Shown here: piece by piece, positions 1-17,256 of the stretch
Layout: every line of letters starts with the position of its first letter
How positions within the stretch are numbered: the first letter of the stretch is position 1
Source of the DNA: a candidate division Zixibacteria bacterium SM23_81
Lineage (GTDB): Bacteria; SM23-81
Assembly: GCA_001304015.1 (NCBI GenBank)
Contig: LJUY01000057.1
Span: forward strand, 1-17,765
Length of the DNA stretch: 17,765 nucleotides
Direction of reading: 5' to 3'
The notes under the pieces: generated by a model
What the model was told of the DNA's origin: nothing
Seen by the model: only the letters and a program-made list of their open reading frames with translations
Database searches by the model: none
Made by a program: the position numbers and the translations under genes

Positions 1-23
1 GGTGGCGTCCCATTTTACTGTTG
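1..23. repeat. Terminal inverted repeat of the IS, transposase 3' side
   Basis: These 23 bases are the exact reverse complement of 1243-1265. The match stops at base 24 (G here, where C would be needed at 1242 but T is found). The repeat contains the stop codon of the transposase at 15-17. Confidence 0.93.
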
Positions 24-1142
24 GTTTTTTATTCTCTGGCTGAAGCGAATCCAATTGATACCAGCGGTGTCTATACCAGCTAACTGAAGTGGGTTCTTCC
101 CGTTGTTCTTTCTATTTTTCTTCCGGCAGTCGGTGAACTTTTTGAAGCGGTACCACATAATCAGCATCTTCAATGTCGCCCAACAGGTCTGATGTGATCC
201 ATAACCATCGGCTGGGTCAATTCTTTCATCCAGGCGACTAATTACTCCCTCAACGATGTTATTAGTCCGTGGCATACCAGGATGGAGGTGATGGGTCACC
301 AGGTAAGGGAAGTTCCTCTTGATGTGTTTGATGATACGTGAAAACCCTGCTTGCTGGAACCCTGAGTCAACAGAGATCGATTCTAGCTGTCGTTGAGCTT
401 TGGTGATGCTGTGAGCATACAACATTCGGTGCACAGCGCCCAGCAGGCGCTTGTTCTGACGCCAGTGGCCTGGTTTCTGAGTGAATCGATAGCGCAACAG
501 ATGCGTTAGATCTTTCTCAAAATGCCGCACACAGAGCTGTCGGGGACAGTGGGGATAGATGGCCTGGATGCCTTGTATGATGGCCGGAAAGCCATCAGAG
601 ACGATCCCTGGGGGTGTATAGCCAAGCATGTCCCGCAAGTCTAAGAAGAAACGCGTCCAGTTGTGACCATCCTCACTGTTCACCAGCAGAGCATGGAGGA
701 TGTCCTGGCTGTGGCTGTCAACGCCAAGCAGGAGCATCTTCCTGCCTCTGCCCACATCAATAGCATCGCCATCAACGATCAGATAGCCAGACCACCGAGG
801 CTTGAGCTCTACAGTAACCTCAAAAGGTGTCTTACAGTTCTTGCAACGCTCTGAGATGAGACGATAGGCTGTGTTTCGGTGAAAACCAAGCCTTCTGGCC
901 ACATCCCGATACGAAGCCCTGCTATCGAAGTATAAATCAACCGCTCGGTATGCTCGCAAGGACATGTATTCGGATGGTGACTGGTACGGCGTAAAGGCTC
1001 GCTGACAGTCGTTGCAGTACCAGCGCTTCCTCTTTTCTCTCTTTCCCTTTTGCCTCTTGCGCATGAGAGAAAAGGAGCCATATCTTACCGTGTGTAAACT
1101 TTGGCAAGAGGGACATCTGATCCTCCGTCGCCTCTGAGCCAT
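15..1142 (-). CDS. DDE transposase, IS256/Mutator (MULE)-like, with N-terminal zinc ribbon
   Basis: This 375-residue protein catalyses cut-and-paste or copy-out movement of the surrounding element. A zinc ribbon is visible at the N-terminus (C10, C13, C43, C46) with a very basic stretch between the two pairs, followed by a helix-turn-helix-like segment around residues 78-96. The catalytic core shows D124 or D126 (VDGDAIDV), D183 in IVSDGFPAI, and E298 in TNNIVEG. The C-x2-H pair at C204/H207, typical of IS256 and MULE transposases, lies between the second Asp and the Glu. The ATG start is preceded by GGAGG six bases upstream. The ORF is intact with all expected catalytic residues, so it is probably active. 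Family assignment is from motif spacing; the exact IS group is not certain, because zinc-ribbon N-termini also occur in other IS groups. Confidence 0.9.
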   Translation of the reverse strand: MAQRRRRIRCPSCQSLHTVRYGSFSLMRKRQKGKREKRKRWYCNDCQRAFTPYQSPSEYMSLRAYRAVDLYFDSRASYRDVARRLGFHRNTAYRLISERCKNCKTPFEVTVELKPRWSGYLIVDGDAIDVGRGRKMLLLGVDSHSQDILHALLVNSEDGHNWTRFFLDLRDMLGYTPPGIVSDGFPAIIQGIQAIYPHCPRQLCVRHFEKDLTHLLRYRFTQKPGHWRQNKRLLGAVHRMLYAHSITKAQRQLESISVDSGFQQAGFSRIIKHIKRNFPYLVTHHLHPGMPRTNNIVEGVISRLDERIDPADGYGSHQTCWATLKMLIMWYRFKKFTDCRKKNRKNNGKNPLQLAGIDTAGINWIRFSQRIKNQQ

Positions 1143-1353: not shown

Positions 1354-2022
1354 TCACACAAAGGTGGCTATCTCAGCGAGCACTTTTCGGCGCACATCCG
1401 GCACGACCGCATCTTTTGAGGGATAGCCAACGACCAGAAGCAAAAATGGCCGCTCATCGGCGGGCCGATGGAGAATGTCATTGAGAAATCTTATCCGACT
1501 TGGCGTATATGTCAGCGCTACCAGACCGGCATGATGGATGGCTGTGATCAATATTCCCGTCGCTATCCCCACCGACTTAAGCGGATAGTAATATTTGACT
1601 CTGTAGCCACCTGGTAACTTCCCGTGTCGCCGAACGAAAACGGCGATCACATACGGTGCGGTCTCCAAGAATTGCTTGTGCTCATTGGTACCCAAGGGCG
1701 CCAAAGCCTCCAGCCATTCTTCCGGAGCTCGATGTCGGTAGAACTCACGCTCTTCCACTTCAGCAGCCAAGCGAATCCGTCGCTTGACGGTCTGGTCCTC
1801 AACCACCACGAAGTGCCACGGCTGCATGTTGGCACCGCTGGGCGCAGTGCTGGCTGCGCGCAGGCACTGCTCGATGATCTCCCGAGGCAACGAGCGGTTT
1901 GAAAAATGGCGAACGGTGCGCCGCCGTTGCATCTCGTTGTAGAAAGCGGCGGCACGCTGTTTCATCTCCTCAACGGGATGCTCGTGATAGGTCATCAAAG
2001 GGACAAACTGGGGTTTGGGCAT
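1354..2022 (-). CDS. Nitroreductase-fold flavoprotein, iodotyrosine deiodinase (IYD)-like
   Basis: The predicted protein has 222 residues and should bind FMN as a homodimer. The N-terminal RRRTVRHFS (33-41) and [15 protein letters not shown] (60-74) are the usual FMN-phosphate and nitroreductase signature regions. The C-terminal half, with TYTP (171-174), VVGYPSKDA (197-205) and VPDVRRK, matches the iodotyrosine deiodinase branch rather than NfsB-type enzymes. The active-site lid carries E91, Y95 and K116 with the E-x3-Y-x20-K spacing that in animal IYD grips the amino-acid part of halotyrosine. The function is therefore plausibly reductive dehalogenation of halogenated tyrosines or phenols, but the physiological substrate in bacteria is unknown. 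I chose the ATG at 2022 because GGAGG (2032-2028) lies five bases upstream; a TTG at 2034 would place the ribosome site inside the gene. It is preceded by a 392-base non-coding stretch with strong folding potential and followed by the IS. Confidence 0.87.
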
Positions 2023-2103: not shown

Positions 2104-2393
2104 CAGCCTATACATTAATTGAATTCATCGTAAAACGAGAGCCAATAAGGGCAACTCCTACCCCACAAACACCACAGCCCACCGTCTTATCTGGCGAGGT
2201 ACTTCAAGGAAGCACATCACCAGGTACACCTTGTCGAAAAGACAGCAGGCTGGATACGCTTCGTCCTTTCAGAACAGCTCTCATATTTAACGGCTCCAGA
2301 AGATGGGGGTCATGAACCCCACAGTCCTCAACCAGAGCCTCACAGGGACGAGCAGTGGCGGTTATGCCACCGCTCCGTCCCATCGTTAGGCTG
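2104..2393 (-). ncRNA. Candidate structured RNA or mRNA leader (unrecognised)
   Basis: This covers most of the 392-base gap (2023-2414), which has no convincing gene. On the minus strand CAGCCTA (2393-2387) can pair perfectly with TAGGCTG (2110-2104), closing a domain. Inside lie consecutive stem-loops: 2381-2345 (about 15 pairs with one bulge), 2339-2292 (GGCTC/GAGCC outside, GTGGGG/CCCCAT inside), 2278-2258, 2253-2220, 2215-2199 (seven pairs, loop CTT) and 2198-2178. Several pairs are G-U in the minus-strand RNA and would be A-C mismatches on the other strand, which favours leftward transcription. It does not match what I remember of RNase P RNA, tmRNA, SRP RNA, 6S RNA, T-box or cobalamin riboswitch cores. 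It could be the leader of the nitroreductase mRNA 82 bases downstream, the 3' region of the desulforedoxin-like transcript, or decayed mobile DNA. The pairings were found by eye without energy or covariation testing. Confidence 0.33.
2345..2381 (-). repeat. Long imperfect hairpin
   Basis: GGGACG pairs with CGTCCC, AGC with GCT, and GTGGC with GCCAC around the loop ATAACC. There is one bulged G and one G-U pair on the minus strand. No T-run follows it, so it is not a standard intrinsic terminator. It is the strongest single element of the candidate RNA at 2104-2393. Confidence 0.7.
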
Positions 2394-2414: not shown

Positions 2415-2588
2415 TCAGGATTGCTTCTTCGCCAAATCCTGGCCACAGCAAACGAATTGGCAGGGAGTGCAGGAGCAGGATTCGGCCGGAGTATCCGCCT
2501 CCCGGCACTCTTTGACCACCTGCAGCTCAAGACCACAGTCCGAGCACACGTATATCTCTCCACTTTTCATATCGTGACAGTGGGGCAT
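2415..2588 (-). CDS. Small Cys-rich protein, desulforedoxin-like metal site
   Basis: This 57-residue protein has nine cysteines (C4, C15, C18, C28, C38, C40, C43, C47, C48). The segment EIYVCSDCGLEL followed later by FVCCGQDL has the C-x2-C ... C-C arrangement of desulforedoxin-type rubredoxin folds, which bind one iron or zinc by four Cys. The extra cysteines between the two halves are not part of a plain desulforedoxin and could form a second site or disulfides. The start is the ATG at 2588, preceded by an almost perfect ribosome site AAAGGAGGTGA; the frame is open further upstream to 2642 without initiation signals. It lies 130 bases downstream of cysS and is separated from it by a T-rich, repeat-containing spacer, so it may have its own transcript. 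The function is unknown; electron transfer or metal binding is inferred from the cysteine pattern. Confidence 0.75.
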   Translation of the reverse strand: MPHCHDMKSGEIYVCSDCGLELQVVKECREADTPAESCSCTPCQFVCCGQDLAKKQS

Positions 2589-2613
2589 TGTTTCACCTCC
2601 TTTTAAGACAGCT

Positions 2614-2718: not shown

Positions 2719-4170
2719 TCAATCTCCCTCAGAGCGGACCACGTCCATAAGCATCTTGCCAGTCTCCTTATCCAGCACCACCGTCCCCTCGGGTCGGTCC
2801 TCCAAGACGGCCCTATGCTCCTCGGAAAGAACTTCCCGGCAGCGATCCGCCTCTCCCCAGTTTTTCTCGGCCCTAGCTTGCTGCCGCTGGCGCACCAGCT
2901 TCTCGATCTTCTCTAGCTCTTCCGATGGCCTTTTTGCGGGTGGTTCCAAAACACCCAGGACTTCATCAAACCGAGCTAACAATTCTTTCACCTTGGAGCT
3001 ATCCGACAAGGATAAGCCATCACCTTCTATAAGCTTGTTTACCCGTCCGATCATGCTGAACAGACTGCCCAGAGCCCCGGAGATGTTCAGATCGTCGTCC
3101 ATATGGCTCTCAAATTCACTCCTGGCCTGCTCCAAGATTGCGTCCAGTTTGTGGTTATCCTTCTCAGCAGCTGATAGGGCCAGGTTGTTGACAAGATCTT
3201 GAATTCGATGCAGAGCGTTGGCAGCGCCTTCAAGGCCATTGAAGGTGAAATTAAGCTGCTGACGATAGTGGGTGCTCATCAGCAGATAACGGATAGCCAC
3301 CGGGTCATGCCCCTTCTCCAACAAATCCCGTAGGGTATATTGATTCCCCAAGGATTTGGACATTTTTTGACCCTCTACAATGAGGTGGGCATTATGTAGC
3401 CAATAGCGCACGAAGGGCTTACCAGTGGCCGCCTCGCTCTGGGCGATCTCGTTCTCATGATGGGGGAACATGTTGTCCACCCCGCCAGTGTGGATATCGA
3501 AGGTCTCTCCCAGGTATTTCATGCTCATGGCACTGCACTCGATATGCCAGCCCGGGCGACCCTTGCCCAGTGTTGTTTCCCAGAAGACCTCCCCGTCGGA
3601 CTCCTCCCAGGCTTTCCAGAGGGCGAAATCGCTGACTTGCTCCTTCTCGTATTCGTCCGCCTTGACCCGGGCGCCGCCCTTGAGCTCGTCCAACTTCATG
3701 TGGGACAGCTTGCCGTACTCGGAAAAGGACGAAATTCGATAATAGAGATTTCCCTCGGCTTCATAAACCACACCCTTTTCCTGCAGCTTCTGAATGAGGG
3801 CCACCATCTCCTCGATGTGTTTTGTGGCCTCGGGATAATGCTCTGCCCTCTGGATCCGCAGCGTGTCCAGGCCTGCGAAAAAGGCCTCCTTGTATTTAGC
3901 GGTATATTCCTCCAGGCTTTGGCCTGTTTTCCGAACTGCGGCGATGCTTTTGTCGTCCACATCGGTGATGTTCATAACCTGAGTAACCTCAAAGCCTCTG
4001 TATTGCAAGTAGCGCCGGAGAAGATCTTCGAAGATATAGGCTCGATAATTGCCGATGTGAGCATAGTCGTACACCGTGGGACCGCAGGTATATATGCGCA
4101 CCTGTCCTTCCTTGATGGGCACAAATTCTTCCTTGCGCCGAGTCAGAGTGTTATATAAAGCTAATGCCAT
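2719..4170 (-). CDS. cysS: Cysteinyl-tRNA synthetase
   Basis: This class I aminoacyl-tRNA synthetase of 483 residues charges tRNA-Cys with cysteine in the cytoplasm. The HIGH-type signature is HIGN at 38-41 and KMSKS is at 269-273. The expected zinc ligands that select the cysteine thiol are present as C29, C212, H237 and E241, in the spacing known from the E. coli enzyme. Length is slightly above the common 460-residue form and the C-terminal anticodon region is complete. I prefer the ATG at 4170, with GGAGG eight bases upstream; a GTG at 4179 and an ATG at 4176 lie in frame, but GGAGG overlaps or crowds them. The btpA stop codon is at 4176, so the two genes are about five bases apart and likely translationally coupled. 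Confidence 0.97.
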   Translation of the reverse strand: MALALYNTLTRRKEEFVPIKEGQVRIYTCGPTVYDYAHIGNYRAYIFEDLLRRYLQYRGFEVTQVMNITDVDDKSIAAVRKTGQSLEEYTAKYKEAFFAGLDTLRIQRAEHYPEATKHIEEMVALIQKLQEKGVVYEAEGNLYYRISSFSEYGKLSHMKLDELKGGARVKADEYEKEQVSDFALWKAWEESDGEVFWETTLGKGRPGWHIECSAMSMKYLGETFDIHTGGVDNMFPHHENEIAQSEAATGKPFVRYWLHNAHLIVEGQKMSKSLGNQYTLRDLLEKGHDPVAIRYLLMSTHYRQQLNFTFNGLEGAANALHRIQDLVNNLALSAAEKDNHKLDAILEQARSEFESHMDDDLNISGALGSLFSMIGRVNKLIEGDGLSLSDSSKVKELLARFDEVLGVLEPPAKRPSEELEKIEKLVRQRQQARAEKNWGEADRCREVLSEEHRAVLEDRPEGTVVLDKETGKMLMDVVRSEGD

Positions 4171-4175
4171 AAGCA

Positions 4176-4985
4176 TCACCTCCCGACGCTTTTCAAGAGT
4201 GCTTTGACTCTCTCAGCCTCTACCTCATTTTCCGTGTGACCATCTCTTTTTAGGGAAGTCCCCACAATGGCCCCATCGGCGATGGCCAGCACCTCGGCCA
4301 CGTTCTCCGGCATCACACCGCTGCCGGCCAAAACTGGTGTTTCCCCAACAGCTTCCTTGACCGACTTCAATTCGTCCAGCAACGGCTGCGCGCCAGTAGC
4401 CTCACCCGTGACGATGAGGGCGTCGGCCATGCCGCGATGGACTAGCTCTCTGGCGGCCATATGCATATCCTGATGGACTAAAGGGCGAGCGTGTTTCACC
4501 ATGACGTCGGCGAATATCTTAGTCGATAATCTCAAAACGCTCCGCTGGCGCAAAAGACGATGAGCCTGCCCCTGAACAATCCCCTGGTCAGTGATCATGG
4601 CCCCCATGAGGACGTTGACCCGGATAAACGAGGCATCCAAAACGGCTGCCAGACCCAGAGCGGACAGGGCATCATTGCGAAGAACGTTCACGCCCATGGG
4701 AATGTCAATAGCTCGATGCACCTCCGCACCCACCAAGGCCATAGCCGCCACCGTCTCCGGTGGCACCCCCTCCGGATAAAAGGGCAGATCCCCGTAGTTC
4801 TCCAAAATCAGACCATCCAGACCGCTTTCCGCATAGACCCTGGCATCTCGCTTGGCCCGATCCACCACCCCAGCCATGGAGCCTTTATACCGCGGACTGC
4901 CCGGAAGAGGAGGCAGATGAATCACGCCGATAAGAGGCCGCTCTGCGGAGAAAATGTCTCTCAGTGAGAACTTCCAGTGCGCCAA
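4176..4985 (-). CDS. btpA: BtpA/SgcQ family protein
   Basis: This 269-residue protein has the predicted TIM-barrel fold of the BtpA/SgcQ family. In cyanobacteria BtpA is needed for stable photosystem I; in other organisms the role is unknown. Seen here are IGVIHLPPLPGSPRY (19-33), LILENYGDLPF (59-69), GVNVLRND (98-105), ALIVTGEATG (189-198) and the C-terminal DGAIVGTSLKRDG (237-249), which resembles a phosphate-binding loop of barrel enzymes. The start is a TTG at 4985 with GGAGG seven bases upstream; the only nearby ATG upstream is out of frame and the next in-frame Met is at residue 37. It lies 45 bases after the M42 peptidase gene and directly before cysS. No photosynthesis gene is seen nearby, so a general metabolic role is more likely than photosystem assembly. 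Confidence 0.9.
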   Translation of the reverse strand: MAHWKFSLRDIFSAERPLIGVIHLPPLPGSPRYKGSMAGVVDRAKRDARVYAESGLDGLILENYGDLPFYPEGVPPETVAAMALVGAEVHRAIDIPMGVNVLRNDALSALGLAAVLDASFIRVNVLMGAMITDQGIVQGQAHRLLRQRSVLRLSTKIFADVMVKHARPLVHQDMHMAARELVHRGMADALIVTGEATGAQPLLDELKSVKEAVGETPVLAGSGVMPENVAEVLAIADGAIVGTSLKRDGHTENEVEAERVKALLKSVGR

Positions 4986-16845: not shown

Positions 16846-16969
16846 CGAAAAAATGCTAGAAGTTCTCAAAATTTACCAACAAGGTTGAAGAGTCCTAAGT
16901 CCTCTGATCCCACATCGTTTAAAACCTTTGCTTGTCAAGAGTGCTGAATAAGCAAACATCTCATCACTA

Positions 16970-16989
16970 ATGGTTTTCTACAAATTTAT
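16970..16989. repeat. 20-base direct repeat, copy 1
   Basis: The 20 bases beginning ATGGTTTTCT are identical to 17091-17110, with 101 bases between the two copies. The match ends at both sides (A versus G before, T versus A after). Confidence 0.85.
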
Positions 16990-16993
16990 TTAT

Positions 16994-17076
16994 TCGGTAA
17001 TCGTTAATCGGTGATCGGTAATCGAGAATACCTGGGTTCAAGGATTCCAGGCTTCAAAGATTAAAGGATTAAAGGG
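16994..17076. repeat. Second block of degenerate intergenic repeats
   Basis: 16994-17026 repeats the TCGGTAATCG/TTAATCGG words of 16763-16802, and 17034-17076 repeats GGATTCCAGG/AAGGATTAAAGG words. The block lies entirely between the two copies of the 20-base direct repeat. AAGGATTAAAGG (17064-17075) is also the inverted counterpart of CCTTTAATCCTT at 17172-17183. Confidence 0.7.
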
Positions 17077-17090
17077 CAAAAACACCGGTG

Positions 17091-17110
17091 ATGGTTTTCT
17101 ACAAATTTAT
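17091..17110. repeat. 20-base direct repeat, copy 2
   Basis: This is identical to 16970-16989. It lies immediately downstream (minus strand) of the -10 box at 17116-17111, so the expected transcription start falls within it. Confidence 0.85.
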
Positions 17111-17139
17111 ATTTTAATATTTATTAGCTTGCAAGTCAA
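17111..17139 (-). promoter_or_regulatory. Probable sigma70-type promoter for the EF-G-like gene
   Basis: On the minus strand TTGACT (17139-17134) and TAAAAT (17116-17111) are separated by exactly 17 bases. Each box matches consensus at 5 of 6 positions and the surroundings are A/T-rich. Transcription would start near 17104 and give a leader of about 360 bases before the GTG at 16743. It is the best promoter-like sequence in the window. It lies downstream of the rRNA terminator, which fits an independent transcription unit. Confidence 0.7.
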
Positions 17140-17170
17140 GGTTTGTTTTGTAATGTGGTGCTTTTTAATG

Positions 17171-17219
17171 TCCTTTAATCCTTGGCCCCTCGAACCCTTT
17201 AACCCTTCAACCCTTTCCT
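17171..17219. repeat. Third block of degenerate intergenic repeats
   Basis: The stretch is made of variants of CCTTTAATCC and AACCCTTCAA. Its minus strand carries AAGGATTAAAGG, the same word as the plus strand at 17064-17075, so the two blocks could pair across the promoter region. It abuts the rRNA terminator. Confidence 0.6.
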
Positions 17220-17221
17220 TT

Positions 17222-17252
17222 CCAATAAAAAAGCCCGCTCATAGCGGGCAAA
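17222..17252 (-). terminator. Intrinsic terminator of the rRNA operon
   Basis: On the minus strand GCCCGC (17249-17244), loop TATGA and GCGGGC (17238-17233) form a perfect six-pair GC stem followed by TTTTTT and ATT. It begins only a few bases after the 3' end of 5S rRNA. This is a textbook terminator structure. Confidence 0.93.
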
Positions 17253-17256
17253 TAAT

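Follow-up and report, generated by a model that had tools for sequence, protein, structure and literature searches.

A structured RNA without known class is supported on the minus strand of the analyzed DNA, a window of 17,765 nt, by sequence comparison and predicted folding. The conserved RNA core covers positions 2167-2336 (minus strand), as delimited by alignment to the homologous stretch G001:C292:306-481:- and by a consensus fold, and is composed of the hairpins P1, P2, and P3 and a U-rich tail. Folding energy, conservation, kept base pairs, and strand specificity are all in good agreement with the leftward structured RNA without known class that was proposed in the first-pass annotation; its extent is smaller than proposed. 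As a structured RNA candidate the element is real, and it lacks a known family. Its distribution is narrow, with two genera of one family, and its function is putative.

Folding energy and extent of the element

The minus strand of segment 2104-2393 folds with -129.1 kcal/mol compared to -93.2 +/- 4.9 kcal/mol for dinucleotide shuffles (z -7.29, reached by 0 of 200), and the plus strand gives a z of -5.49 against dinucleotide shuffles. Among 244 segments of 290 nt scanned on both strands of the whole window, 2104-2393 is the lowest, and it ranks lowest on each strand separately as well; the runner-up elsewhere in the window reaches a z of -4.4. Folded alone, the core segment has a z of -3.8 and the homologue a z of -4.8. 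After 2104-2393, the strongest deviation in folding energy within the window is seen at 16966-17255 (z about -4.4 to -5.1), a stretch that contains a terminator hairpin adjoining the 5S gene as well as a long imperfect inverted repeat of GGGTT/AAGGG-like short repeats. Degenerate short repeats of the type GATTACGAATTCGC / CGAATCCCGAA occur in intergenic stretches of this genome (2600-2720 and 16760-17000) and of the other genome (L100 1-110).

The first-pass annotation had delimited the RNA by a seven-base closing pair, CAGCCTA/TAGGCTG, the 3' half of which is located at 2104-2110 and its partner at 2387-2393 (minus strand). The two halves are indeed exact complements, but chance alone should produce about seven 7-mer inverted repeats with such a spacing in the 1.4 kb around them, and thus the closing pair alone is not evidence of an RNA. 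Likewise, the 15-pair hairpin GGGACGGAGCGGTGGCATAACCGCCACTGCTCGTCCC at 2345-2381 (minus strand, -28.3 kcal/mol) is present as described, and no second copy of it was found elsewhere in its own genome. Closing pair and hairpin are both restricted to this genome, without counterpart in the homologous locus. Since these two features are not shared and the former is at chance level, the conserved feature is smaller than 2104-2393. A likeness of the motif GCCACUG in the 5' hairpin to a B12 box was rejected, given that no cobalamin riboswitch model scores and that this hairpin is not conserved. Of the original observation, the energy, the literal helices, and the lack of an Rfam match are confirmed, a homologue that shares the consensus fold exists, and the extent is not confirmed.

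Conservation and consensus fold of the core

In the alignment of the core to its homologue, 119 of 169 ungapped columns are identical (70%), compared to 39-60% identity at four-fold degenerate sites in seven neighboring orthologous genes. Outside the cysS-to-yebC gene run, the core is the only block that can be aligned between both loci. Mismatches affect 19 of 92 paired columns and 31 of 77 unpaired columns of the core alignment and follow no codon phase.

None of the 46 consensus pairs is lost in either copy, with 13 one-sided and three two-sided changes, a count that is partly circular as the consensus fold was chosen on the same two sequences; controls with a slid partner keep about 50% of the pairs. 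In the within-pair shuffle control the observed pairing was reached by 63 of 500 shuffles. When the single-sequence folds were carried to the respective partner, 11 of 61 pairs were broken in one of the two transfers (p 0.05) and 21 of 65 in the reverse transfer, which gives no support. Applied to the alignment and compared to column shuffles, RNAalifold yields a z of -4.37 on the minus strand, a value reached by none of 500 shuffles, and of +0.44 on the plus strand, and therefore the minus strand is regarded as the strand of the RNA. Taken from the comparison of two sequences, P2, the basal part of P3, and P1 in its general form appear well supported, whereas the P1 register and the apical domain of P3 do not.

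P1 (2291-2334, minus strand; consensus UGGYU.AGGA.UG.GGG / CCY.CA..UYCU..RGCCG) has 14 consensus pairs, four of which carry a one-sided change that preserves pairing. This genome favors the alternative register GGCUCUG/UGGAGCC, and the register of the lower part of the hairpin is ambiguous. P2 (UGUYCU..AAAGGACG; 2262-2276, minus strand) comprises six consensus pairs including one U-G/C-G change, with a pair probability of about 0.9 in this genome. P3 (2175-2252, minus strand) possesses a long basal stem, CAGCCYGCUGUCUU / RAGACGGYGGGYU, with 15 consensus pairs of which five show a one-sided and one a two-sided change and none is broken, at pair probabilities near 1. Its apical domain is partly conserved, with an apical hairpin at 2193-2221. 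Directly after P3, the alignment places a U-rich tail (2167-2174, minus strand) that reads UUUUUGUUUGU in the homologue and, weaker, UGUGGUGUUUGU in this genome, and which we infer to be terminator-like. With the U-rich run behind it, P3 resembles an intrinsic terminator whose tip is unusually large and conserved in part. It was not called by a simple terminator scan, which permits short loops only, the loop of P3 being beyond its limits.

A small ORF, MRAVLKGRSVSSLLSFRQGVPGDVLP, is situated inside the core (2204-2284, minus strand), preceded by GGAG and overlapping P2 and the 5' arm of P3. The homologue has an ORF of 27 codons at the equivalent place (26-27 codons across both), and ATG, stop codon, and upstream GGAG/GGGG are common to both genomes. 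The middle 11-12 codons are mutually out of frame, with the DNA still similar. Start and stop are kept by 0.8% of simulated partners, a figure to be read in the light of the fact that the ORF was noticed post hoc. The small ORF may account for part of the conservation of the core.

Distribution and gene neighborhood

The comparison comprised four genomes of the phylum, G000 (this genome) and G001 representing two genera of one family and G002 and G003 representing its sister family. One homologue was found by blastn (G001:C292:355-481), in the only other genome of the family compared, and was widened by end-to-end alignment to the stretch given above. A covariance model, R1, built from both copies recovered only these two in 386 related genomes, 31 further genomes, and 5 genomes from the phylum to which G386 belongs. 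A weak R1 match in G386 is located inside a large ORF, and other weak matches of 13-17 bits are not credible. No match to the RNA was observed at 80 cysS loci from named genomes or in phage and plasmid collections. A viral pattern match fell within a coding gene of chaperonin-like type and is attributed to chance. The element is single-copy, with no paralogue in its own genome. Collecting homologous regions for covariation, as had been suggested, thus yielded one homologue with three two-sided and 13 one-sided compatible changes, but no third copy.

In both genomes the RNA is located just downstream of, and on the same strand as, cysS, encoding a cysteine--tRNA ligase (2719-4176, minus strand; TIGR00435, 492.8 bits), whose protein shares 81% amino acid identity with the copy adjoining the homologue. 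The conserved stretch of G001 begins at the cysS stop codon. In this genome the RNA is situated about 380 nt past cysS, and a small Cys-rich, zinc-ribbon-like gene (2415-2591, minus strand; weak LysW-like match), for which G001, G002, and G003 gave no match, lies in between. For G002 and G003 no copy of the RNA was detectable behind cysS. In G002 (G002:C112 1-870), cysS is followed by a promoter-like site TTGACA...TATTTT, four tRNA genes (Rfam), and the beginning of a tuf-like gene.

Downstream of the RNA, a nitroreductase-family gene (1354-2022, minus strand; PF00881, 86.4 bits) starts at a distance of about 145 nt. It matches the BluB model with 64 bits, under the cut-off of 150. No match to this gene was found at E <= 1e-15 in G001, G002, or G003, and the approximately 305 nt downstream of the RNA in G001, up to the contig end, contain no credible gene. 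As the nitroreductase and the Cys-rich gene were found in this genome only, of the four, the nitroreductase seems an unlikely ancestral partner of the RNA. The contig end of the window is occupied by a complete-looking insertion sequence (1-1265) with 20-base terminal inverted repeats, GGTGGCGTCCCATTTTACTG, at 1-20 and 1246-1265. The best match of its transposase (18-1142, minus strand) is an IS256 variant zinc-binding model with 53.3 bits, below the cut-off of 150.

Possible roles and relation to known RNAs

We tentatively favor, at somewhat less than even confidence, a structured element that is specific to this lineage and forms the 3' end of the cysS transcript. The data show its conservation, its fold, its strand, and its location behind cysS; co-transcription with cysS, termination, and stabilization of the cysS RNA are what we infer. 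The RNA would be read on the minus strand, either within the cysS message or as a fragment processed out of it. P1 and P2 would fold first, and P3, with its strong stem, conserved tip, and U-rich tail, would then act as terminator and 3'-end cap that ends and stabilizes the cysS RNA. Weighing against this 3' element are the number of sequences, two only, the weak U-run in this genome, and about 80 conserved bases upstream which a plain terminator would not need.

Alternatively, the terminator-like stem may be part of a cis-regulatory leader. In such an attenuator or riboswitch, P3 would be the terminator of the expression platform, and its conserved tip, or a small leader ORF, would sense a signal and control the next gene, here the nitroreductase, for which a leader had been suspected in the first-pass annotation. 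The conserved tip of P3 recalls terminator-type riboswitches (PMC8632094), unpaired stretches between P1 and P2 are conserved, the 26-27-codon ORF with its upstream GGAG/GGGG reaches from P2 into the 5' arm of P3, and the nitroreductase start is close by in this genome. A nitroreductase leader is nevertheless not supported, the gene not having been found in the other carrier of the RNA, where the roughly 305 nt up to the contig end also lack any other credible gene, and no riboswitch or leader model of Rfam scores even at E <= 10. We consider such a leader doubtful, albeit a serious candidate. A new class of metabolite- or charged-tRNA-responsive riboswitch or ribosome-dependent attenuator behind cysS in one family, composed of P1, P2, a sensing tip of P3, and possibly a leader ORF, would be distinctly unlikely. 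Only a little less so, and still unlikely, is a trans-acting sRNA that is transcribed independently from a promoter of its own and terminated by P3. The size of about 170 nt, the terminator-like 3' end, and a conservation that is independent of both flanking genes of this genome would suit an sRNA, but the stretches immediately upstream showed no sigma-70-like promoter in the two genomes, and in the homologue the conserved stretch directly begins at the cysS stop codon.

That the locus is primarily a gene for a conserved small protein or leader peptide (MRAVLK...QGVPG...), with the fold being secondary, is very improbable. In addition to the shared ATG, stop codon, and GGAG/GGGG and the few simulated partners that keep both ORF ends, all four substitutions in the in-frame blocks MRAVLK and QGVPG are synonymous. 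Against a peptide speak the middle codons, which are out of frame between the genomes though their DNA is similar, the mismatches without codon phase, a conservation that exceeds the ORF on both sides, and the significance of the fold on the minus strand. Least probable of all is a decayed gene, a mobile element, or chance folding. The nearby insertion sequence and a closing pair of the kind expected by chance would fit such an origin, but the element is single-copy and without phage or plasmid match, the observed energies were reached by none of the 200 and none of the 500 shuffles, and the conservation between the genera is well above that of four-fold sites. If the RNA is confirmed, it would constitute a new bacterial structured RNA family, absent from Rfam, from a lineage of which hardly any members have been sequenced. 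In practice, given the corrected gene association, the search for its role should begin at cysS and 3'-end biology and not at control of the nitroreductase.

Concerning known classes, positions 1260-2720 of the window and the homologous stretch were scanned against Rfam 15, with the gathering cut-off of each family as criterion. None of the families, including riboswitches, T-box, 6S, and group I/II introns, gave a match pertinent to the core even at E <= 10, and two or three sub-threshold matches are far below gathering, which bears out the earlier statement that the RNA could not be matched to a known class. 6S RNA (RF00013) gave no match in the four genomes at E <= 1, with a model that is insensitive, finding 6 of 14 controls. 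In the open papers searched, no description of an RNA downstream of cysS was found, and the closest parallels are provided by published motifs. An attenuator of cysS itself, uORFC-8-2 of the Rhodobacterales, is located upstream of this gene and relies on Cys codons (PMC8632094). Similar to the RNA described here it concerns cysS and combines a small ORF with a terminator stem, whereas our RNA lies downstream of cysS and its ORF is devoid of shared Cys codons. A terminator-like stem with conserved tip bases is also found in the HMP-PP, guanidine-IV, and HRC-8-4 motifs, the first two of which are riboswitches that control the genes downstream of them (PMC8632094); compared to these, the cysS-downstream RNA has two extra hairpins before the stem and no known shared downstream gene. 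In case of the orphan HRC-28-1 motif, the gene context is different, and the likeness is one of description, beyond which the comparison consists of the Rfam scan only. However, both are multi-stem RNAs whose last stem resembles an intrinsic terminator, and HRC-28-1 has been proposed to form a structured part of the 3' UTR in the mRNA of its upstream gene (PMC8632094), a published interpretation which the 3'-UTR reading favored here parallels.
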